Shown in pieces: positions 2,566 to 39,465 of a DNA stretch of 41,485 nt. The notes under the pieces are model-generated. The model was not told the DNA's origin and did not search any database. It saw only the letters and a list, made by a program, of their open reading frames with translations. Source of the stretch: Treponema sp. Its GTDB lineage: Bacteria > Spirochaetota > Spirochaetia > Treponematales > Breznakiellaceae. How positions within the stretch are numbered: position 1 is the first letter of the stretch; each line of letters begins with the position of its first letter. The position numbers and the translations under genes were made by a program. Where the stretch lies: positions 1 to 41,485 of the forward strand of contig WQSN01000024.1 in assembly GCA_009787835.1 (NCBI GenBank), written 5' to 3'.

Positions 2566-2971
2566 GAGAGGGTTTAATCCCCTGGAAAGAATGTCAGCGC
2601 ACCGCAAGGCGCTGCATAGAAACATGGTTACGTCTCTGTTCAGAATGGAACGTATAAAAACCACAAAGGCAAAAGCTCTGGCGGTCAGACGCACTGCCGA
2701 GAAGATGATTACCCGCGCGAAAGAAGATTCTGTTCATAACCGGCGGATTGTTTCAGGCCGTTTGTATGATGAGGCAATCGTAGCGAAGCTTTTTACCGCT
2801 ATCGCGCCCAGGATGAAAGACAGAAACGGCGGTTATACCCGTATATTGAAACTCGGTGAACGAAAGGGAGACGCAGCGGAACTGGTAATTCTGGAACTCG
2901 TTGATTATAAATTAGATACAGAAGAAAAAAAGAAATCCAATAATAAAGACAAAAAGGACAAGGGGAAATAG
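2555..2971 (+). CDS. rplQ: 50S ribosomal protein L17
   Basis: Ribosomal protein L17, located near the peptide exit tunnel. The start [20 protein letters not shown] and the core [19 protein letters not shown] are diagnostic of the family. At 138 residues it carries a lysine-rich C-terminal extension (from about residue 122) beyond the common bacterial length. The ATG at 2555 overlaps the last 11 bases of rpoA, and GAAGATGAAG precedes it, suggesting translational coupling. Confidence 0.97.
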
Positions 2972-3184
2972 ATGTCTAAAGCGCACAGAGGCAAGGGAAT
3001 TCGGGATCAATTTGCCCACGGCCGAGGTGAATGTCCGGTCTGCAAGAGAGTAAATGTAAAGGTTCTGTACGAACAGGAAGGCGAAGGTAAAAAGTACAAG
3101 ATCTGTAAAATATGCAAGGCTGCGATCAAACACGGAAAGAAAAAACTTCCCGCCGCGGTTAAACCTGCCGAAGCGGCTACATGA
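2972..3184 (+). CDS. Small zinc-ribbon protein following rplQ
   Basis: A 70-residue basic protein whose ATG follows the rplQ stop codon with no gap, so it is probably translated by re-initiation in the same operon. It has two CxxC pairs: C21-P-V-C24 and C45-K-I-C48, separated by a charged hairpin-like segment. This arrangement is typical of a zinc ribbon. The N-terminus (SKAHRGKGIRD) and lysine-rich region after residue 54 could bind RNA. I do not recognise a characterised family. By position it may be a ribosome- or RNA polymerase-associated factor, but that is inference. Confidence 0.85.
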   Translation: MSKAHRGKGIRDQFAHGRGECPVCKRVNVKVLYEQEGEGKKYKICKICKAAIKHGKKKLPAAVKPAEAAT

Positions 3185-22984: not shown

Positions 22985-25900
22985 TCATCCTCTTGACGCT
23001 ATTTCCAGTATAAGTTCAACTTCGTTTCTGGAAAGGTTCATGGCGTTTGCGATTTCTTCCACTGTCCAGCCCTGATCTTTAAGGCGCCTTACATTGTCGC
23101 GATCCTGCGGAGTGGGTGCTCCCTTAATGGAGCTTGGAACCGCTTTGCCGCTTTCCTTGTCAATCAGCGACTTTGTCAGTTTAAGCAGGGTGCGCGCGTC
23201 CTTGTCCAGGGCTTTAAGTTCCGTTTCTGTCCTTGCAAGCCATTCGCGGGCTACATTCATTTCGGCTATGCGCTTTTCAATTACCGCAATGGACTCGTCA
23301 AGAGTGGAAAGTTTTTCAATGGTGTTATTCGCTTTTTCATTTTCAGATGACAGCGTCTCAATCGAGGAGCGCAGATTTTCAAATTGATCTGTAAGGCTGT
23401 TTAAAATTGATTCGGCGTTCCTGATCGCGGTTTCTGTTTTTTGCAGAACTTTAAAGTTGCGGTCGATGCTTTCCGATGTTTCATCAAGCACTTCCTGTTT
23501 GCGCTCAATGCGCTGGAACTTGTCTTCAGTTTCATCAATGGATGTTTCCAGTTTGCGTATCTGCACCTGAACAGCCTGCAGAATATCGTCCGATGTTGTA
23601 ACCTGAGAAAGTTTTTCTTCGACGGATTGGGAAGTTTTTTTGAAGCGCTCGAAGTCCTTTTCCATGATTTCAAAACGGTGCCTTTCAGAAAGGAAGTTGG
23701 TCATTTTACTGTTCATTTCTTCAACAAGACGTTTGGTGCGCGTAAATTGATTTTCCAGATTCATGATTTCCGTTTTACGCTGTTCCAGACGGTTAAGATC
23801 AGTGTTGATTTCTTCCATGCGCAGTTCAAGTTCCTGTTTAAGTTCGCCTGTCTGATCAAATATTTTCTTCTGAACGCCCAGTTCCCTGCGGATGTCTTCC
23901 AGACTCAGCCTGAATTGAGATATGCGTTCGTCATTTTCCACCGCTGTCTCCCTGCTGTGGCGGCGCAGATCTTCCAGGGACGCGTCCATTTCACGCATTC
24001 TGGAATTATACTGGCTGTGCCATTCATCGGAAGTTTTGCGGAAGTTAAGTGCTGCGTCATCAAGCGAAGAGTAAACGCTCTGTGAGCGGGATACAATTTC
24101 TTCAAGTTCCTCATCAAGTTCCCGCTGTTTCTGGCGCAGGGTCTCCTGAAGGGAAATCTGATGCTGGCCGATCTGCGTTTTAACTTCAGTTTCCGCCATT
24201 GTGCGGAGATCAGTAAGATCCTGTTTTACCTGCCTGGTAAAGGAAAGGCGCGTTTCATCAGCATTGCTCATCTCTTCCCTTATGCCTTCCTCAAACGCGA
24301 AGGCGTCCTGTTTGAGCCTGTCCATGTCCGCTGTAAGCCGTTCGCCCAAAGCGGAAATATTTTTGCGCTGATCCGCCGTTATGCGCTCTTCCGCCTGCTG
24401 CCATTCATTTGATATATCAGACGCGCTCTTGTCATACCGTTCCTGCAAGTTATCCTGCCAGCCTGTAATCTGCCGTCCGATTTCTGTCGTGCGCTTTACA
24501 AGTTCAACGGTGAAATTATTTTCAAATGTGTCAAGCTTTTCGTTCGTGTTGTTAATAGCCTGCTGCCTTAAAACATTAAGCTCATTGTCCATATCTGTAA
24601 GTTCCTTGCGCATTGCCTGGGTCTGCGAGTTAAATCCGTCAGCCGCCTCTTCCATGGAAGCGCCTGTTTCCTTTTCAAACATTGTAAAATCATATCTGAC
24701 TCTGGAAACGGCGTCCTGCATTACAAGACGAAGTTCATTGTCAAGCCTGGCCGCGTCATCTGCAAGGCTGCTGAGCTGGTTTATGGCTTCACTCTGCGCT
24801 TTGGTGTAATCGGCAAGCCGTTTTTCCGTTGACGTGATAATTTTTTGTTCGGTATCCATGCAAAGCGCCGTCCACGCGTCCATCTGCGTTTTCATCGCTT
24901 TATCAAGATTATCGCGCTGAGATGTTACATCAATATTTGATTTATCCTTTAACCGGCTGAGTTCGGCATCCAGTTCATCGTGCTGCTGTTTGATTGCGGA
25001 AAGCGATTTATCCTTAAGGTCATTAAGCACGCTGAAAAAACTTTCCTGCTGCTGTTTGACAGATGCCTCTGATCTTGCGCGTAACGCCGCGAGTGAGCCG
25101 TTAAGTTCCGTAAGCATGCTGCCGTATTCCTGGTGTTTATTGTTTACGGCGGTGAAGATTTCATCCTGCTGCTCTTTAAACGCAGTGTCTGTTCTCTCCC
25201 TGATTTCAGCTAATGCGGTATTAAGACTCTCATTCTGCCTGTTTATGTCGGTTTCCGATCTTGACTGAAGCGCCGCGATGGAAGCAGTAATTTCAGTAAG
25301 CAAACCTGTATATTCCTTTTGCCTGTTATTGATAATTGACATTAACTCTTCATGCTGCCTGCTGATTGTATCCGATGAATCTTCCTTTAAGCTGCCGAGA
25401 GCGGAATCAATTTCCTCGCGCTGTTTGCTGACAGCTTCCGATGATGCGTCTTTAATCTCGTTAAGAGATGCGCTGAGTTCCTCGTGCTGCTGCTTGATTG
25501 CGGCGGATGATTTCGCTTTAAGCTCCCTGATGGCGGAACCTAGTTCCTGCTGCTGCTGGTTTACAGCGTCTGAGGATTCTGTTTTTAACTGATCTAAAAC
25601 TGAGTCAAGATCATCATGCTGCCGCCTTACAGCTTCAGATGATTCTGTTTTTAGCTGATCCAGAACAGCGTCAAGATCATCGCGCTGCTGTTTGATAGCA
25701 TCAGATGATTCTGCTTTTAGGATGCCAAGAACTGAGCCAAGCTCTTCCTGCTGATGCTTAACCGCCGCTGCTGAAACAACCCTTAATTGGCTGATAACAG
25801 AGCTTATCTCTTCCTGCTGATGCTTGATGGCGGAATCCGATTCTTTGTTCAGGTTGCCGATAACAGTAACAAGCTCATCATGCTGCATTTTGTACGCGGA

Positions 25901-28900
25901 ATCTGATTTTTCCCTGAGTTCTGCGACAGCACTGTCCAGTGTTTCCATCTGCTGTTTAATTGAAGTTTCCGTACTTGCACGTAACGCGGTGACGGAAGTG
26001 CTCACTTCTGAAAGCATGCTGTTGAAGTCCTGATACGTTTTGCTGACAACGGCCATTATCTCTTCCTGCTGCTGCTTTACAGACTTGCCGGATTTCTCCT
26101 TCAGTTCGCTCAGCGCCTCGTTTAGTTCTTCTTCCTGCTGCATGATGTTAGCTGACGATTCTGTTTTGATTTTACTTAATGCCGAACTGAGTTCTTCATA
26201 TTGAATCCTAATTCCGTCCGCCGCTTCCGTCTTTAACTCTTTTATTGCGGAGCTTAATTCATCCTGCTGTTTTTTAATACTGGAAGATGATTCTGTCTTT
26301 AACAGATTGATGGCGGAATCAAGCTCTTCCTGCTGCCGGGTGATGTTAGCTGACGATTCTGTTTTAAGCTGGCTTATTGCGGAGCTTAATTCTTCCTGCT
26401 GCTGTTTGACCGCGGCGGATGCTTCTGTTCTGAGCTGCGTCAAAGTTGAGCTGAGTTCATTCTGCTGATGTTTGATTGTGCCTGATGTTTCTGTTTTAAT
26501 CCTGCCAAGCGCGGATTTAAGCTCTTCCTGCTGATTTATAATTGAGGTATTTGATTTGTCCCTGATTTCGCCGATTACATTTCCAAGTTCCTGCTGCTGC
26601 TGCGCAAAGGCTGCACCGGATTTTTCCCTTAAATCGCCGATGACAGAGGCAAGCTCTTCATGCTGCTGCTTTAATGCGGCAGTTGAGTTTTCCCTGAGCA
26701 TGGAAAGTGCGTTACTTAATTCTTCTTCCTGCTGTTTTACAAAAGAATCGGATTTATCGCGTAACGAAGAAATGGAAATATTGAGTTCTGTAAGCATAAC
26801 ATTGAATTCCTTCTGGTGCGTATTCACAGCCGAAAGGAGATCATGCTGCTGCTGTTTGATACTGTTGTCTGTCGTTTCCTTTATTTCACCGAGAGAGGAT
26901 GCGATCTCTTCCCTGTACTCAGTAATCGCATTTTTAGTCTGTGATTGTAATGCCGTAAATGAAGAGTTGAACTGTGAAAACGCATCAGTAAACTCATTCT
27001 GCTGGCGGTTAATCGCGTCTTTCAGTTCATCCTTAATCTGTTTAACAGAAGCGCCTGAATTATTTTTGAGTTCGCCGATTACAGAATTAAATTCATCCTG
27101 AAGCTGTTTTACCGCGTCAAAGGATTTATCTTTTAATCCCTTTAGTGTTATGCCCAATTCATTATACTGCTGCATGACAGACGCGGAGGATTTTTCCTTT
27201 ATCCCGCTGAGCGCCGCGCTTAGTTCCTCTTCCTGATGTTTGATTGAGTCGCCTGATTTTTTCTTTAGTTCGTCCAGTACTACGCTTAGTTCTTCCTCCT
27301 GCTGAATGATAATGTCGCCTGATTTTTTCTTTAGTTCGTCCAGTACAGCGCTCAGCTCTTCCTCCTGCTTAATGATGGAGTCGCTGGATTTTTCTTTAAG
27401 TTCGCCCAGAACAGAACTCAGATCTTCTTCCTGCTGCATGATTGAGTCGCCTGATTTTTTCTTCAGACCACTTAGCGCAGCGCTCAGTTCTTGCTCCTGC
27501 TGCATGATGGAGTCGTCAGATTTTTTCTTTAGTTCGCCCAGAACAGAACTCAGCTCTTCTTCCTGTTGAATGATGGAGTCGCTTGATTTTTCTTTTAATT
27601 CTCCCAGAACAGAACTCAGCTCTTCTTCCTGCTGAATGATGGAATCGCTTGATTTTTCCCTGAATTCTCTGAGTGCCGCGCTTAACTCTTTTTCCTGCTG
27701 AATGATGGAGCTGCTTGATTTTTCTCTGAGTTCGCTGAGTACCGCGTTTAATTCCTCTTCCTGCCGCTTTACTGAAAATGTTGACTTTTGTTTAATTTCG
27801 CCTAACGCTGCGCTTAGTTCCTCTTCCTGCTGCTTTACTGAAGCTGTTGATTTTTGTTTTAGCTCGCCGAGTACCGCGCTTAGTTCACTTTGCTGCTGTC
27901 TGACAGAGACGCCTGATTTTTCCTTTAGTTCATTCAGTGTTGTGCTTAATTCCTCTTCCTGCCGCCTGACGGAAACATCTGTTTTTTCTTTGAGCTCATC
28001 AAGCGTTGTTTTTAGTTCATCCTGTTGTTCTGCAATTGCAGCGCCGGATTTTTCCCTGAGTTCGCTTAACAGTGCGTTTTGCTCATCCTGCTGCTGTTTC
28101 TGCAGTGTCTTTGACTGCGCCTGCAGCTGTGAAACCGCGCTGTTTAGTTTTGAAACAATCCCGTCTGTTTCCTGCTGAATATGGCTTACTGCCGCCGCCA
28201 GTTCATTGTTCTGCAGTTTTACGGCTTCATTTAAATCATCCTGCTGCTGTTTAATCGCGGCGGCGGATTTGGCGCGTAAATCGGCGATAGTCTGGTTAAA
28301 TTCGGTTTTTGCTTCTGTCATGTCTGTATCAAGTTCTGCGCGCTGCTTTTCTGCCAATGTTTTGAATTCAAGGAAATTCTGTTTCCAGTCATTTTGCTGC
28401 TGTAAAAGTGAAGAATCAATCGCGTCTCGTTCCTTTACAAGCGCGTTTGTAATCTCTTCCTGCTGCCTTGCAAGAGAGATGCTGATTTCTTCTTTTTGTT
28501 TTTTGGTCATGCTGTCTATTTCATCTGAGTACTTAACCCATTCCTGATACGATGTCTCCTGCTTTGCGCTTATATCCAGAAGTTCGGAGTCGCATTTTTC
28601 ATGGATATTTTTTAATTTTTCATTGATTTCCAGGTTTTCATTTTTCAGAGCTTCCTGGGATATTTTAATTTTTTCCTCAAAGAATGCTTTGGTCTGATTA
28701 ACCCGTTCCTGCGCCTGTTCCTTAAGTTTCGCAAAGGCGGTTTCTTCCATTTTGTCAGCGCGTTTTCCCGCGTCATCCAAAACATCCCTGAGCGTTCTTT
28801 TTACATATTCCATATCGCGGGTAATATTCGCTTCCCGCTCATTTTCCGCCTTTATTACCGCATCCCGGTGTTCTTCAATTTTACGCTCAATAACCTGCGC

Positions 28901-29482
28901 GGCGGCTTCAAAATCCGCGACAGTGGACTGCGCCGAAGCAATAACATCGCGCGCAGCCTGTTCAAGAAATTCTTCGTTCTTTTTTTCAAGACGTGATTCT
29001 GTTTCTTCCAGATTTTTTCCCGCTTCATCAAGCGCTTCTTCAACCTGGATAAATTTATCCCTTGCTTCGTTTATCCTTTTACTGGTGCCCTCCACAAATG
29101 CGGATTCATCCCTGATACGGCTTAAATTTTCCTGGACCCTGTCTGTCATGCTGAACAGTTCATTCAGGGAAGATTCAAAAGTCTGTATGTGTCCTTCTAT
29201 GCGCGCGATAGCTTCGGATTTTTTTGCAAGCTCTTCTTCGGTAAGCTGCTGTATATTTTTTATTAACTGAATGGCGGCTTTTTTTTCTATATCAAGATTA
29301 ATACCGAAATTTTTCACCGCCATGCTTTTTTCTTCAGCGTAAGCGGCAATCTCTTCTTTGTATTTTTCGGCGTGTTTCTTCAGTTTTTCCAGCGGCTGAG
29401 TTTTTCTGTCCAGAAATCTGTAAAGAATGAAGCCAAGCGCGACAATTCCAAGTGTTATTAAGTTCCCTACTGTAAAGATCAT
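22985..29482 (-). CDS. Giant coiled-coil protein (SpiroCoCo type) with membrane anchor and C-terminal HTH
   Basis: A 2165-residue protein of the spirochaetal coiled-coil (SpiroCoCo) type. The start at 29482 (MIFTVGNLITLGIVALGF) has AGGAGGGGG upstream; an in-frame start at 29548 would add an unlikely 22 residues inside the promoter. The N-terminus is one transmembrane helix (about 4-21). Nearly everything else is predicted coiled coil, including tandem 22-residue units of consensus LKEKSSxSIxQQEEELSxxLxE. The last 40 residues (RLKDQGWTVEEIANAMNLSRNEVELILE) resemble a helix-turn-helix. It could link the inner membrane to a filament or to DNA; function is not known to me. Confidence 0.9.
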   Translation of the reverse strand: MIFTVGNLITLGIVALGFILYRFLDRKTQPLEKLKKHAEKYKEEIAAYAEEKSMAVKNFGINLDIEKKAAIQLIKNIQQLTEEELAKKSEAIARIEGHIQTFESSLNELFSMTDRVQENLSRIRDESAFVEGTSKRINEARDKFIQVEEALDEAGKNLEETESRLEKKNEEFLEQAARDVIASAQSTVADFEAAAQVIERKIEEHRDAVIKAENEREANITRDMEYVKRTLRDVLDDAGKRADKMEETAFAKLKEQAQERVNQTKAFFEEKIKISQEALKNENLEINEKLKNIHEKCDSELLDISAKQETSYQEWVKYSDEIDSMTKKQKEEISISLARQQEEITNALVKERDAIDSSLLQQQNDWKQNFLEFKTLAEKQRAELDTDMTEAKTEFNQTIADLRAKSAAAIKQQQDDLNEAVKLQNNELAAAVSHIQQETDGIVSKLNSAVSQLQAQSKTLQKQQQDEQNALLSELREKSGAAIAEQQDELKTTLDELKEKTDVSVRRQEEELSTTLNELKEKSGVSVRQQQSELSAVLGELKQKSTASVKQQEEELSAALGEIKQKSTFSVKRQEEELNAVLSELREKSSSSIIQQEKELSAALREFREKSSDSIIQQEEELSSVLGELKEKSSDSIIQQEEELSSVLGELKKKSDDSIMQQEQELSAALSGLKKKSGDSIMQQEEDLSSVLGELKEKSSDSIIKQEEELSAVLDELKKKSGDIIIQQEEELSVVLDELKKKSGDSIKHQEEELSAALSGIKEKSSASVMQQYNELGITLKGLKDKSFDAVKQLQDEFNSVIGELKNNSGASVKQIKDELKDAINRQQNEFTDAFSQFNSSFTALQSQTKNAITEYREEIASSLGEIKETTDNSIKQQQHDLLSAVNTHQKEFNVMLTELNISISSLRDKSDSFVKQQEEELSNALSMLRENSTAALKQQHEELASVIGDLREKSGAAFAQQQQELGNVIGEIRDKSNTSIINQQEELKSALGRIKTETSGTIKHQQNELSSTLTQLRTEASAAVKQQQEELSSAISQLKTESSANITRQQEELDSAINLLKTESSSSIKKQQDELSSAIKELKTEAADGIRIQYEELSSALSKIKTESSANIMQQEEELNEALSELKEKSGKSVKQQQEEIMAVVSKTYQDFNSMLSEVSTSVTALRASTETSIKQQMETLDSAVAELREKSDSAYKMQHDELVTVIGNLNKESDSAIKHQQEEISSVISQLRVVSAAAVKHQQEELGSVLGILKAESSDAIKQQRDDLDAVLDQLKTESSEAVRRQHDDLDSVLDQLKTESSDAVNQQQQELGSAIRELKAKSSAAIKQQHEELSASLNEIKDASSEAVSKQREEIDSALGSLKEDSSDTISRQHEELMSIINNRQKEYTGLLTEITASIAALQSRSETDINRQNESLNTALAEIRERTDTAFKEQQDEIFTAVNNKHQEYGSMLTELNGSLAALRARSEASVKQQQESFFSVLNDLKDKSLSAIKQQHDELDAELSRLKDKSNIDVTSQRDNLDKAMKTQMDAWTALCMDTEQKIITSTEKRLADYTKAQSEAINQLSSLADDAARLDNELRLVMQDAVSRVRYDFTMFEKETGASMEEAADGFNSQTQAMRKELTDMDNELNVLRQQAINNTNEKLDTFENNFTVELVKRTTEIGRQITGWQDNLQERYDKSASDISNEWQQAEERITADQRKNISALGERLTADMDRLKQDAFAFEEGIREEMSNADETRLSFTRQVKQDLTDLRTMAETEVKTQIGQHQISLQETLRQKQRELDEELEEIVSRSQSVYSSLDDAALNFRKTSDEWHSQYNSRMREMDASLEDLRRHSRETAVENDERISQFRLSLEDIRRELGVQKKIFDQTGELKQELELRMEEINTDLNRLEQRKTEIMNLENQFTRTKRLVEEMNSKMTNFLSERHRFEIMEKDFERFKKTSQSVEEKLSQVTTSDDILQAVQVQIRKLETSIDETEDKFQRIERKQEVLDETSESIDRNFKVLQKTETAIRNAESILNSLTDQFENLRSSIETLSSENEKANNTIEKLSTLDESIAVIEKRIAEMNVAREWLARTETELKALDKDARTLLKLTKSLIDKESGKAVPSSIKGAPTPQDRDNVRRLKDQGWTVEEIANAMNLSRNEVELILEIASRG
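24910..28060 (-). repeat. Tandem 66-bp repeats encoding 22-residue units
   Basis: Inside the giant coiled-coil gene, in-frame 66-bp units encode 22-residue repeats. The exact string GAACAGAACTCAGCTCTTC occurs at 27541 and 27607, spaced 66 bases. By eye there is a first block of about 16 uninterrupted units (28060 down to about 27000), a second of about 11 and a third of about 9. Blocks are separated by distinct punctuating units such as EYGSMLTELNGSLAALRARSE. DNA identity is highest between about 27300 and 27700, suggesting recent duplication there. Confidence 0.9.
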
Positions 29483-29511
29483 CAGTATTATACCCCCTCC
29501 TGAATAATACT

Positions 29512-29548
29512 CAATGTGAATTATATACTTTGTTAATGGTATACACAA
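29512..29548 (-). promoter_or_regulatory. Predicted sigma-70-type promoter for the coiled-coil gene
   Basis: On the minus strand, a TTGTGT -35 box (29543-29548) is followed after exactly 17 bases by a perfect TATAAT -10 box (29520-29525). The predicted transcription start is about 30 bases before the ATG at 29482, followed by an AGGAGGGGG ribosome binding site. The -35 matches the consensus at only three positions, so this rests mainly on the -10 box and spacing. Confidence 0.5.
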
Positions 29549-30351: not shown

Positions 30352-30777
30352 ATGTCCATTATTCAAACAGAAATTACAATAAAAAATATAAGCGACAAGA
30401 TAAGAGCAGAAGAAGGCTTAATTAAAGAAACTAATATCAGAAAAGTTACTGTTAACGCGATAATTGATACCGGCGCGTGGACGCTTGTGATTAATGAATA
30501 TATCCGCGACAAACTTGGGCTTAAAATATTGGGCATGGAACTTCAGTCGCTTGCCAACGGCGCAGTAGCGGAGTACAGCATTGCAGGGCCTGTGGAGATA
30601 AGGTGGAAGAACCGCCGCGTTACATGCGACGCTTTGGTTCTGCCCGACGCTGATGATGTATTGCTTGGCGTAATTCCTCTTGAAGCCATGGATCTGACAA
30701 TCAATCCCCGCAGGGAACTTGCGGGAGTTCACGGCGATTTTATTATGCATAAATTAAAGAGTTGCCATTTTGCATGA
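30352..30777 (+). CDS. Retropepsin-like (clan AA) aspartic protease
   Basis: A 141-residue protein with the single-lobed retropepsin pattern. The catalytic motif VNAIIDTGAWTLVI places D39-T40-G41, and the later LLGVIPLEAMDL (about 107-118) corresponds to the hydrophobic-hydrophobic-glycine motif of the family. The monomer is half of a pepsin-type enzyme, so it should act as a homodimer. No signal peptide or membrane helix is visible, so it is probably cytosolic. Substrate unknown. Its stop codon overlaps the ATG of the next gene by ATGA at 30774-30777, so the two are likely translationally coupled. Confidence 0.85.
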   Translation: MSIIQTEITIKNISDKIRAEEGLIKETNIRKVTVNAIIDTGAWTLVINEYIRDKLGLKILGMELQSLANGAVAEYSIAGPVEIRWKNRRVTCDALVLPDADDVLLGVIPLEAMDLTINPRRELAGVHGDFIMHKLKSCHFA

Positions 30778-31168
30778 AAATTTTAAAAACATCAAACCGA
30801 TTATTCGTCTTTTGCTTTTTATGCTGCTTGCTTTTTCCGCCGGCTGTTTATTGTCAGGACTTTTCTTCAATAGACAGAGATCTATTGATTTTGGAGAGCT
30901 TGATAGCAGATACAATCTCCAGCACGGAAGAGCAACAGAGATTATTGGACAGCTTGAAGGTGAACTTGGACGAGAGCGGGATATTAATCGACAGTTACGG
31001 GAACATAATACAAGAGCAAGAGAAATTGCTGAAGGACTTGCAGATACGTCTGAACGAAATGTCCGAAACCTACAGGATGCAATCAGACTTATCGGCGAAA
31101 TACGAGCGAAGCTCAAAGTTCTGGAAAACTTTTACGTTAATAGCGATTCCGGTAACAGCGCTGATTAG
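30770..31168 (+). CDS. Overlapping gene B: membrane-anchored coiled-coil protein in a second frame
   Basis: A 132-residue frame from TTG at 30770, with AAAGAG at 30756-30761 placed eight bases upstream. The N-terminal segment IIRLLLFMLLAFSAGCLLSGLFF (about 11-33) is a transmembrane helix or, with SAGC, a possible lipoprotein signal. A charged helix with strong heptads follows (ATEIIGQLEGELGRERDIN, NVRNLQDAIRLIGEIRAKL). Gene A lies in the +1 frame relative to it. Arginine is coded seven times by AGA and five by CGA, atypical here. Both products look like structured proteins, so I list both; one may be a shadow frame. Function unknown. Confidence 0.55.
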   Translation: MHENFKNIKPIIRLLLFMLLAFSAGCLLSGLFFNRQRSIDFGELDSRYNLQHGRATEIIGQLEGELGRERDINRQLREHNTRAREIAEGLADTSERNVRNLQDAIRLIGEIRAKLKVLENFYVNSDSGNSAD

Positions 31169-31199
31169 CGGAACAGTTGTCTGGGCGGCAGCGAGGTAA
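30774..31199 (+). CDS. Overlapping gene A: exported coiled-coil protein with C-terminal membrane segment
   Basis: A 141-residue frame starting at ATG 30774, which overlaps the retropepsin stop codon. The N-terminus (LFVFCFLCCLLFPPAVYCQD) is a plausible signal peptide. Residues about 30-105 form heptad-like helices (LLILESLIADTISSTEEQQ, IIQEQEKLLKDLQIRLNEM). The end, FWKTFTLIAIPVTALISGTVVW (about 116-137), is a good transmembrane helix with a short basic tail. Function unknown. Almost the whole gene is shared in another frame with overlapping gene B. Leucine is often coded by TTG (nine times), unlike neighbours, as expected under dual constraint. This may be the only real frame. Confidence 0.65.
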   Translation: MKILKTSNRLFVFCFLCCLLFPPAVYCQDFSSIDRDLLILESLIADTISSTEEQQRLLDSLKVNLDESGILIDSYGNIIQEQEKLLKDLQIRLNEMSETYRMQSDLSAKYERSSKFWKTFTLIAIPVTALISGTVVWAAAR

Positions 31200-37615: not shown

Positions 37616-38233
37616 TTATAATAAAAATTCCTGCGTATCTTTAATAAATTTGCGAAAACTAATCGGACATCTGCTTTCTAATGCTTTTATATCTGCGCTT
37701 TCTGCAATTTGAGCATAAGTATCACTATTGTCAATTAAATTAAATTGATTTAAAACTCTTAATAAAACATTTTTTGGATGATTTGAATAACTGTCGTTTC
37801 TTTGCCCCCATAATTCTTCCGGTTTTAACGGTAACTTTGGATTACTTGGTTTTGAAGGGAAAGCTTTTTCATCAGCTAAAAGCCAACTTTCAATTGTTTC
37901 TTTTGGGACAATAGCAAGACAGCGAATACCATTTTGTTTTAAAGGAATAAATTCACAGATAATATTATTATAGTTTTCACCGTATTTACCATCACCGTCC
38001 TGATGGTATGCGATATATTTGGATTTATTAAGAAGAGAGTATGTTGCAAGCGATTTTATGAATTTGTAATGACCTGATATAGATATATTACTCTTGCGAT
38101 ATGTCCTGATTTTTTTAAGTACATCACGTTTAACCCATTGAATATCCAAATTATTATTTTTTAATACTTTTTTTATTAAATGAGGAATAACGGCATAATC
38201 GGTAATACCTTCGCAGTGCAAATATATGGTCAT
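37616..38233 (-). CDS. TOPRIM-fold, DUF4276/RloB-like protein paired with an ATPase
   Basis: A 205-residue protein. The N-terminal HCEGITDYAVIPHL places the TOPRIM glutamate at E8, and HQDGDGK (77-83) supplies the DxD pair D79/D81, so a metal-dependent nuclease or phosphotransfer site is plausible. The motif KETIESWLLAD (111-121) is common in DUF4276/RloB-type proteins. Its ATG is two bases after the ATPase stop, with GGAG just upstream, so the two genes are co-translated. ATPase plus TOPRIM partners are found in OLD, PARIS and AbiL-like anti-phage systems. Family identity and activity are inference. The coding sequence is AT-rich compared with the region before 36.7 kb. Confidence 0.75.
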   Translation of the reverse strand: MTIYLHCEGITDYAVIPHLIKKVLKNNNLDIQWVKRDVLKKIRTYRKSNISISGHYKFIKSLATYSLLNKSKYIAYHQDGDGKYGENYNNIICEFIPLKQNGIRCLAIVPKETIESWLLADEKAFPSKPSNPKLPLKPEELWGQRNDSYSNHPKNVLLRVLNQFNLIDNSDTYAQIAESADIKALESRCPISFRKFIKDTQEFLL

Positions 38234-38235
38234 TT

Positions 38236-39465
38236 TCAGTTCTCCGGTTTTACGCCTAATTTGCTTAAAATTGCTTCTTTACCAAAGTTCTCCCATATTT
38301 CACCGGGATTAAGAAAAGCAAGAGCTTCGCGCATTTCTTCTGTATCAAAGAATTTTTTTGAAAAAACCCTGCCATTTTCATCTTTCCATAAGAAGACTAT
38401 ATCTTCCGGTTTAACTTCATTTAAAATAATGGGACTATGAGTTGTTACTATTACCTGCCGAATTTTTTCTTCTTTTAGATTATACAACAATGCAATTATT
38501 TTATCTGTAATATATGGATTAATTCCATTTTCAATTTCATCAAGCAAAATCATTCCATTTCTTACAACACCGCTATCTGCCACTATAAATTCATTTGAAT
38601 CTGTTACAAGAAGCGAACCATCATCTGTAGAAATAAATATTGTTTTTTCTTCCATTGTAATAACTACAAACGCAATAATTCGCAATAATCCATCGCTTAT
38701 ATGTATAGAATCTATTGGCTGTGAATTGTTTTTTGTTTTTATTATTATAGATAATTTAATTTTATTACCAAGATCAGATGTTAGAATTTCAATATTTGAA
38801 CCGGCTAAATCGGAAACAATTTCATTTAATCGCTGTTTATCCGAATTACTCATGTTATTTATAACATAAGCCAATGTTTCTCCGCCAATACCAATATTTT
38901 GTGCAAATGTTGTTTTCTTTCCGCTTCGCATTTTCTCAGGAGATAATAACTCCAGGTTTGTTGAACATCCCAGGAAATAAATAAGTTTGTTAATCTCTTC
39001 AGATATAACTGCTGAACCGGAGATATATTTCAATGCAGATGATTGAATGTTTAATTGTCCAAGGGAAGAAGGAATATTATCTAAACCTTCATTATTGTAA
39101 GATAATATTATTTTTTTATCAGAATGTCTGATTATCTTCTCTTTTATTATCCATCCATTTATATAATTAACAGATAAAGTCCATTCAATTGTTTCAATGC
39201 TTCCATTAATCAGGAAATTCCATGTAGTTACAAGTTCAACAGGTTTATTTAACAAGCTGTCAGATAATAATTCTTCATACGACCATCCTCTTTCGCGGAG
39301 ATACTCAGGGATATCGCGAAAAGCAGCAGAACGTAAAAAATCCAATACCTGAAGAATTGTACTTTTTCCGCAACTGTTTTCTCCAATAAAAACTGTAAAC
39401 GGCGTTAATTCAATAGTCATATCCTGGATAATTTTAAAATTCTTTATTGATAATCTTTTTAACAT
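38236..39465 (-). CDS. ABC/AAA-type ATPase of a two-gene defence-like pair
   Basis: A 409-residue ATPase of the AAA_15/AAA_21 (OLD-like, SMC-like) group. Walker A GENSCGKST is at 28-36, a signature-like SDGLLR at 257-262, Walker B ILLDEIENG with D309-E310, and the His switch THSP at 342-345. The insertion between the halves is about 200 residues with no obvious zinc hook. The start ATG at 39465 has AGGGTG upstream. It stands just before the TOPRIM gene, so nucleotide-dependent sensing coupled to a nuclease effector is the likely theme. AT-rich base composition suggests horizontal acquisition. Confidence 0.85.
   Translation of the reverse strand: MLKRLSIKNFKIIQDMTIELTPFTVFIGENSCGKSTILQVLDFLRSAAFRDIPEYLRERGWSYEELLSDSLLNKPVELVTTWNFLINGSIETIEWTLSVNYINGWIIKEKIIRHSDKKIILSYNNEGLDNIPSSLGQLNIQSSALKYISGSAVISEEINKLIYFLGCSTNLELLSPEKMRSGKKTTFAQNIGIGGETLAYVINNMSNSDKQRLNEIVSDLAGSNIEILTSDLGNKIKLSIIIKTKNNSQPIDSIHISDGLLRIIAFVVITMEEKTIFISTDDGSLLVTDSNEFIVADSGVVRNGMILLDEIENGINPYITDKIIALLYNLKEEKIRQVIVTTHSPIILNEVKPEDIVFLWKDENGRVFSKKFFDTEEMREALAFLNPGEIWENFGKEAILSKLGVKPEN

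Follow-up and report, generated by a model that had tools for sequence, protein, structure and literature searches.

A proposed spanin-like pair of co-initiating, almost coextensive genes, probably kept as a constrained orphan in a Treponema chromosome

The window, by which we mean the whole stretch of 41,485 nucleotides analysed here (contig WQSN01000024.1 of a Treponema sp.), carries two complete frames, A and B, that overlap by 395 nt on the same strand (Table 1). An earlier sequence-only reading had placed two frames of these lengths at these positions, in each of which a hydrophobic N-terminal segment leads into a long charged stretch, and all of this holds. What that reading called gene A is B here; with the names so exchanged its +1 frame relation, its codon skews and its ATGA coupling to a retropepsin gene, which belongs to the 141-aa frame (30774-30777), all fit. 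The skews themselves, with TTG for 9 of the 21 Leu codons of B and AGA or CGA for 12 of the 15 Arg codons of A, are present as described, but taken alone they do not prove a dual constraint.

Table 1. Positions of the overlapping pair and of other features in the window.
Feature	Position	Strand	Remark
Long coiled-coil-like frame	22985..29548	-	2187 aa
Retropepsin-like (clan AA) gene	30352..30777	+	TGA overlaps the ATG of B (ATGA)
AAAGAG stretch	30756..30761	+	weak Shine-Dalgarno-like, ahead of the double start (sequence reading)
Double start TTGCATG	30770..30776	+	TTG of A and ATG of B, 4 nt apart
Frame A	30770..31168	+	TTG start, 132 codons
Frame B	30774..31199	+	ATG start, 141 codons
ATPase gene and small partner	37616..39465	-	matches to PDC-M25A and HEC-01B

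Several relatives have AGGAG or GAGGAG where the window has AAAGAG. By hydropathy, A has one hydrophobic N-terminal segment (about residues 14-32, with the peak window from residue 14), presumably a transmembrane helix, after which comes a charged coiled-coil-like stretch. The N-terminus of B is also hydrophobic and, by eye, an SPase I-type signal ending near residue 27; a long helix separates it from a second hydrophobic segment (about residues 122-140, KD19 peak 1.98 at residue 122) that had escaped the earlier reading and is presumably a C-terminal transmembrane anchor. An AlphaFold2 model of B from a 16-sequence alignment gives a helix over residues 30-140 (mean pLDDT 83.5, pTM 0.37). No family in Pfam, NCBIfam or PHROG identifies the window's A or B, and among solved structures there are weak coiled-coil matches only, the best with E values of 0.0014 (B) and 0.016 (A).

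The immediate neighbours of the pair encode a HAD hydrolase, the retropepsin, an Rce1-like protein, PilZ, HEAT, ComEC and KsgA. There is no lysis gene among them, and the immediate setting is not that of a phage lysis region. The retropepsin, with its ATGA overlap and the same arrangement in the orthologous locus, might suggest a protease acting with two membrane substrates. However, 68 loci and the window together gave retropepsin matches at just three distinct places, in one of which the gene is some 1 kb away from the pair, and none was noticed at L138/L140; the protease as a general partner was rejected on this count, its gene probably lies outside the A/B system, and we regard a retropepsin system as very improbable. 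The pair was matched in three of 22 PilZ/Rce1-like regions, several of them short, and an empty-site comparison of these 22 regions defined no insertion boundaries. In L189 and L077 the pair immediately precedes c8, whereas in L076 some 3 kb separate the two. Elsewhere in the window, the ATPase gene and its small partner match the candidate defence models PDC-M25A (E 5e-66) and HEC-01B (E 2e-9), and by these similarities are a possible two-gene anti-phage system. The 2187-aa frame is hydrophobic at its N-terminus and otherwise notable for a coiled-coil-like stretch that is repeated and very long.

Such long overlaps might in principle be accidents of codon usage. When the codons of the other frame were shuffled synonymously 2000 times in the window copy, A stayed open in 0.4% and B in 0.6% of the trials. 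Over 20 host copies, the same procedure predicts 0.67 open copies of A and 0.29 of B, against 20 of 20 observed, although the choice of intact copies accounts for part of this figure: the set comprises 17 TTGNATG copies with full A plus L069, L070 and L061, while L055, L060 and L072 were excluded beforehand. Tests on site classes are independent of this choice. They are simple counts rather than the OLGenie program, with few sites that are silent in both frames.

The most direct comparison is that of the window with L083, an orthologous locus with the same neighbours, where pS is 0.183 for A and 0.303 for B as against 0.463-0.602 in five neighbouring genes (two of them partial), and pN is 0.105 (A) and 0.094 (B) against a neighbour range of 0.117-0.166. 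Nonsynonymous to synonymous ratios are below 1 in both frames. Relative to the pooled neighbour pS of 0.515, there are changes at only 18 of 69 sites that are silent in B and not in A (p 1.6e-5), and at 15 of 80 that are silent in A and not in B (p 1.6e-9); just 13 of 194 sites where a change alters both proteins differ, making this class the least diverged (0.067 vs 0.262 and 0.189). When 18 of the 20 host copies are grouped into nine disjoint pairs, the ratio pNN/pSN for A is 0.60 (bootstrap 0.51-0.69) and pNN/pNS for B is 0.45 (0.39-0.53). At the second orthologous orphan, L138/L140, pS is 0.087 for A and 0.118 for B, whereas six frames upstream range over 0.165-0.421; a downstream frame that lacked a proper counterpart was not counted. 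Here pN (0.079 for A, 0.065 for B) falls inside the neighbours' range of 0.019-0.106 and is not low, which leaves the suppressed pS as the basis of the case at this locus. Synonymous depression, proposed beforehand as a check, is thus present in both frames at two orthologous loci by simple counting. Gene conversion or recent transfer could also have lowered the divergence.

At E≤0.01, B has matches in 16 of 59 relatives. Within the genus, A is matched in 16 of 39 genomes, some weakly, and the B profile in 17 of 39, some matches being weak or partial; the remaining 22 genomes, which include 5 of the 11 most complete, have no B match, and the genus can thus do without the pair. Across the order, the B profile finds 47 of 390 genomes and 18 of 91 genera, again with some weak or partial matches. 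A scan of genome contigs with B gave 23 loci, nearly all on contigs titled Treponema or another spirochaete. One copy, L054 (JAISZT010000090.1), is on a contig titled Desulfovibrio sp., which is probably a wrongly binned spirochaete contig, a likelier explanation than transfer between phyla.

Among 37 distinct loci examined, 36 match both A and B, and L068 matches B alone. Both frames, in the same relative phase, are kept in 35 of the 36, the exception (L014) being a broken copy; several of the others are likewise broken or are fragments. This is the conservation that had been named as a check. The TTGNATG double start is found in 18 of 23 near-full host loci (not in L069, L070, L072, L060 or L061), and 17 of these 18 have a full A. 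In the other, L055 (positions 2744-3166), B is complete and A stops after 46 codons, and the same assembly holds further copies. The pattern that the earlier reading had named as refuting, one frame conserved and the other broken, is therefore seen in single copies such as this one but not as a rule. In a more distant set (L128-L137 and six IMG/VR copies), with B identities to L132 down to 16-28%, A is open across B over 97-136 codons and starts 4 nt upstream of B in 13 copies; in two others the distance is 7 nt, and in the last it is 19 nt. With the B codons shuffled, A would escape a stop with a probability between 0.0025 and 0.24, depending on the copy. At L130 (5089-5907), A runs 437 nt beyond the stop of B and may therefore be fused to another domain.

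Could B be the only gene, with A left open by the codon use of B? It is B that starts with an ATG, resembles a signal at its N-terminus and ends in a hydrophobic segment, and the near-full copy L055 retains B while breaking A. Nevertheless, this idea is hardly credible in view of the 20 open copies of A where fewer than one is expected, albeit among copies chosen intact, and of the suppression of B-silent changes that alter A. Moreover, of 20 regions fetched with the B profile alone, 18 match the A profile, and the other two are loci of the g9 type described below, which have their own partner frame, A'. Taken together, these data support conservation of both frames with a constraint on each beyond the effect of the other, as expected of an overprinted pair. 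Overprinting in the window is very probably real, and we infer that both proteins are made.

These chromosomal copies may serve the host, or they may be the dying remains of prophages or other mobile elements without a host function. Consistent with the latter are the broken or truncated copies (L055, L064, L078, L079, L084 and L085), the several matches per genome, the contigs that end inside the pair and the absence of a match from more than half of the genus genomes. So is the similarity between L052 and L055, two copies in one assembly whose common stretch (416 bp at 93%) barely exceeds the pair, and which also have in common a separate 0.95 kb at 77% on the other side; L057 and L059, also from one assembly, share more of the flank (774 bp at 83%). 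From L052/L055 a mobile unit consisting of the pair only is suggested, and reading of the flanks revealed no ends or target duplications. At L065 and L123, a similar repeat-like sequence (GTCATTGCGAG...) lies just after the B stop, and it may bear on the mobility of the pair. A dead copy, however, would drift at about the pS of its neighbours, yet every site class falls well below that level at the two orthologous loci, with the changes that alter both proteins the rarest between the window and L083. Even allowing that gene conversion could be another source of such low divergence, we consider the remnant explanation unlikely, if still one to be taken seriously.

Two scans of IMG/VR located the pair on six distinct contigs, and all six copies have an NTGNATG double start. 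In trees these copies group together (support 71 for A and 91 for B), apart from the 20 host copies, many deeper branches of both trees being weak. The upstream gene was scanned in four of the six (L087, L091, L090 and L089; L088 and L092 were left out). Directly upstream of the pair in L087 and L091 is an M15 endolysin (Pfam E 9e-13 and 7e-6; also a PHROG endolysin), while the gene in L090 is DUF261-like, below the Pfam cut-off, and that in L089 has no family match in the Pfam/PHROG scan. In L087 the pair is followed by an integrase, and L090 carries a Mu-type portal. Pfam also recognises the upstream genes of other distant loci: CHAP in L130 and L135, Amidase_2 in L134 and DUF261 in L129, with a short frame between this gene and the pair in L130 and L134. 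If the DUF261 gene is set aside, its role as an endolysin being our inference, location beside an endolysin is seen in L087, L091, L130, L134 and L135. The A of L087 weakly matches Rz-like spanin PHROGs, the best being PHROG 214 (E 0.0016; one of four A-type relatives scanned), and the B of L129 matches PHROG 89 (E 0.064; six B-type relatives scanned); the other eight of these ten had no spanin PHROG match. A clear lipobox was not recognised by eye in any of the six IMG/VR copies. Searches of phage and plasmid collections with B, and of the phage collection with B', found no match. Scans of viral contigs with B of the L132, L134 and L129 types yielded no relatives, and one with the L136 type yielded a single record, L198.

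A comparable pair, A'/B', exists in genus g9 of another family, with a match in 5 of 7 genomes. The comparison covered 11 rows, of which ten came from those genomes (two identical) and one from IMG/VR; L207 and L209 are additional rows with pieces of the same frames. In all 11, A' starts 4 or 7 nt ahead of B' in the same relative phase as A and B. Every A' carries a lipobox with two Cys, and every B' combines a signal and a coiled-coil-like stretch with a hydrophobic segment at the C-terminus. Pfam confirms the M15-like upstream gene of one g9 sequence, and at some loci another frame separates such a gene from the pair. Profile comparison relates B to B' with a probability of 94% over nearly the full length, and A to A' with 73% over A positions 1-112 of 140. 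Of the crossed controls, A against B' scored 0.2% and B against A' scored 31%, the latter indicating that coiled coils inflate such scores. Although the g9 A' proteins have no spanin PHROG match, this prophage pair looks, by its sequence features, like an o-spanin-like A' with an inverted i-spanin-like B'.

The earlier reading had compared the pair with phage Rz/Rz1. As a matter of kind this comparison stands, given the endolysin-adjacent relatives, the weak PHROG match and the lipobox of A' in g9, but the window copy falls outside the strict definition of a two-component spanin. Like lambda Rz/Rz1, it has overlapping same-strand frames for two small predicted envelope proteins, and in common with two-component spanins generally it has coiled-coil-like parts predicted to be periplasmic, relatives that in some cases lie just after an endolysin and, in g9, a partner with a lipobox. 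According to the part of PMC6139136 available to us, the i-spanin gene of lambda contains the o-spanin gene, in the "overlapped" systems the o-spanin gene extends past the i-spanin frame, and an N-out, C-in i-spanin topology is named only as a possibility. By that account, the pair departs from both arrangements in that the start of A precedes that of B by 4 nt and the frames are almost coextensive. It also differs in that B is N-out, C-in by prediction, that the window's A lacks a firm lipobox and that the copy is chromosomal. By hydropathy A fits a type II inner-membrane i-spanin, whereas B is predicted to be type I.

The lipobox is the main weakness of the spanin interpretation. In the window, A has a weak one, SAGC followed by more hydrophobic residues within a longer hydrophobic stretch. 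A Cys at the SAGC position occurs in 11 of 20 host copies; as it is absent from the other nine, we rejected a lipoprotein reading for all A. With so weak a lipobox and so inconstant a Cys, an outer-membrane anchor is not secured and a spanin mechanism is unproven for the window form; if both proteins sit in the inner membrane, what connects them to the outer one is left unexplained. Nor is the window's B a unimolecular spanin, having no N-terminal lipobox to accompany its presumed C-terminal transmembrane segment. It resembles T1 gp11 in its export signal and C-terminal hydrophobic segment but, as gp11 is presented in the available part of PMC6139136, differs in having an SPase I-type signal instead of a lipobox, a helical domain rather than beta-sheet and an overlapping partner. 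The B signal of the window ends in ...VYCQ, and in the alignment most other copies end in SQ or AQ without a conserved Cys. A parallel in spirochaetes is the lysis module of Leptospira transposable prophages, where, in the part of PMC8705779 available, spanins are predicted near an M23 peptidase and the spanin genes are defined as an o-spanin fully embedded in an i-spanin gene; that part describes no double-start pair. Nor does any of the titles or abstract openings that literature searches on spanins and on spirochaete or Treponema prophages brought up describe such a pair.

The best interpretation of these observations is a spirochaete spanin-like pair with co-initiating, almost coextensive genes. 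One stretch of DNA would yield two proteins from starts 4 nt apart, probably with a ribosome-binding site common to both. A would be anchored in the inner membrane by its N-terminus, while B would be exported as a helix of about 110 residues and anchored by its C-terminus, so that the two helices would face each other, and presumably pair, in the periplasm. Phage members near an endolysin would most likely act as spanins, bridging or fusing the two membranes once the peptidoglycan is cut. The window copy may descend from such a phage-type pair or have a common ancestry with it. Since both frames are under purifying selection, it probably does a host job that requires an A-B complex in the envelope, and since it is constrained with no adjacent lysis gene, it has probably been domesticated. 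The topology, the binding of A to B, the spanin activity and the host role in this scheme are what the sequences suggest. An orphan might alternatively protect against phages, its coiled coils mixing with those of an incoming phage's lysis pair and so spoiling or timing lysis. This speculation draws on the sequence relationship between host and phage copies and on both being intact, yet a PADLOC scan left B without a model and gave A only two weak hits (best E 0.0019); we think it improbable. On balance we favor, with reasonable confidence, a pair of the spanin family whose window copy is a constrained chromosomal orphan with an envelope role in the host.

To our knowledge, long same-strand overlaps in which both frames are kept have seldom been shown in bacterial chromosomes, and this one comes with internal controls: the neighboring genes, the codon shuffles and the two orthologous loci. 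The constraint on both frames and their conservation, the endolysin neighborhood of several relatives and the orphan setting are results of computation. More tentatively, and with the odds somewhat against so full an account, a virus-type pair may have been taken over by gut spirochaetes, have spread nearly alone to many sites and be held there by dual-frame selection for the host envelope, and the spanin class would itself include inverted, C-anchored i-spanins, so far a proposal only. The gut origin is suggested by isolate codes, Co191 being one that occurs in work on termite-gut MAGs. The pair is a concrete candidate for the function that finishes phage lysis in spirochaetes, allows the idea of an inverted i-spanin to be tested and shows that a lysis-type pair can persist where no phage is evident.
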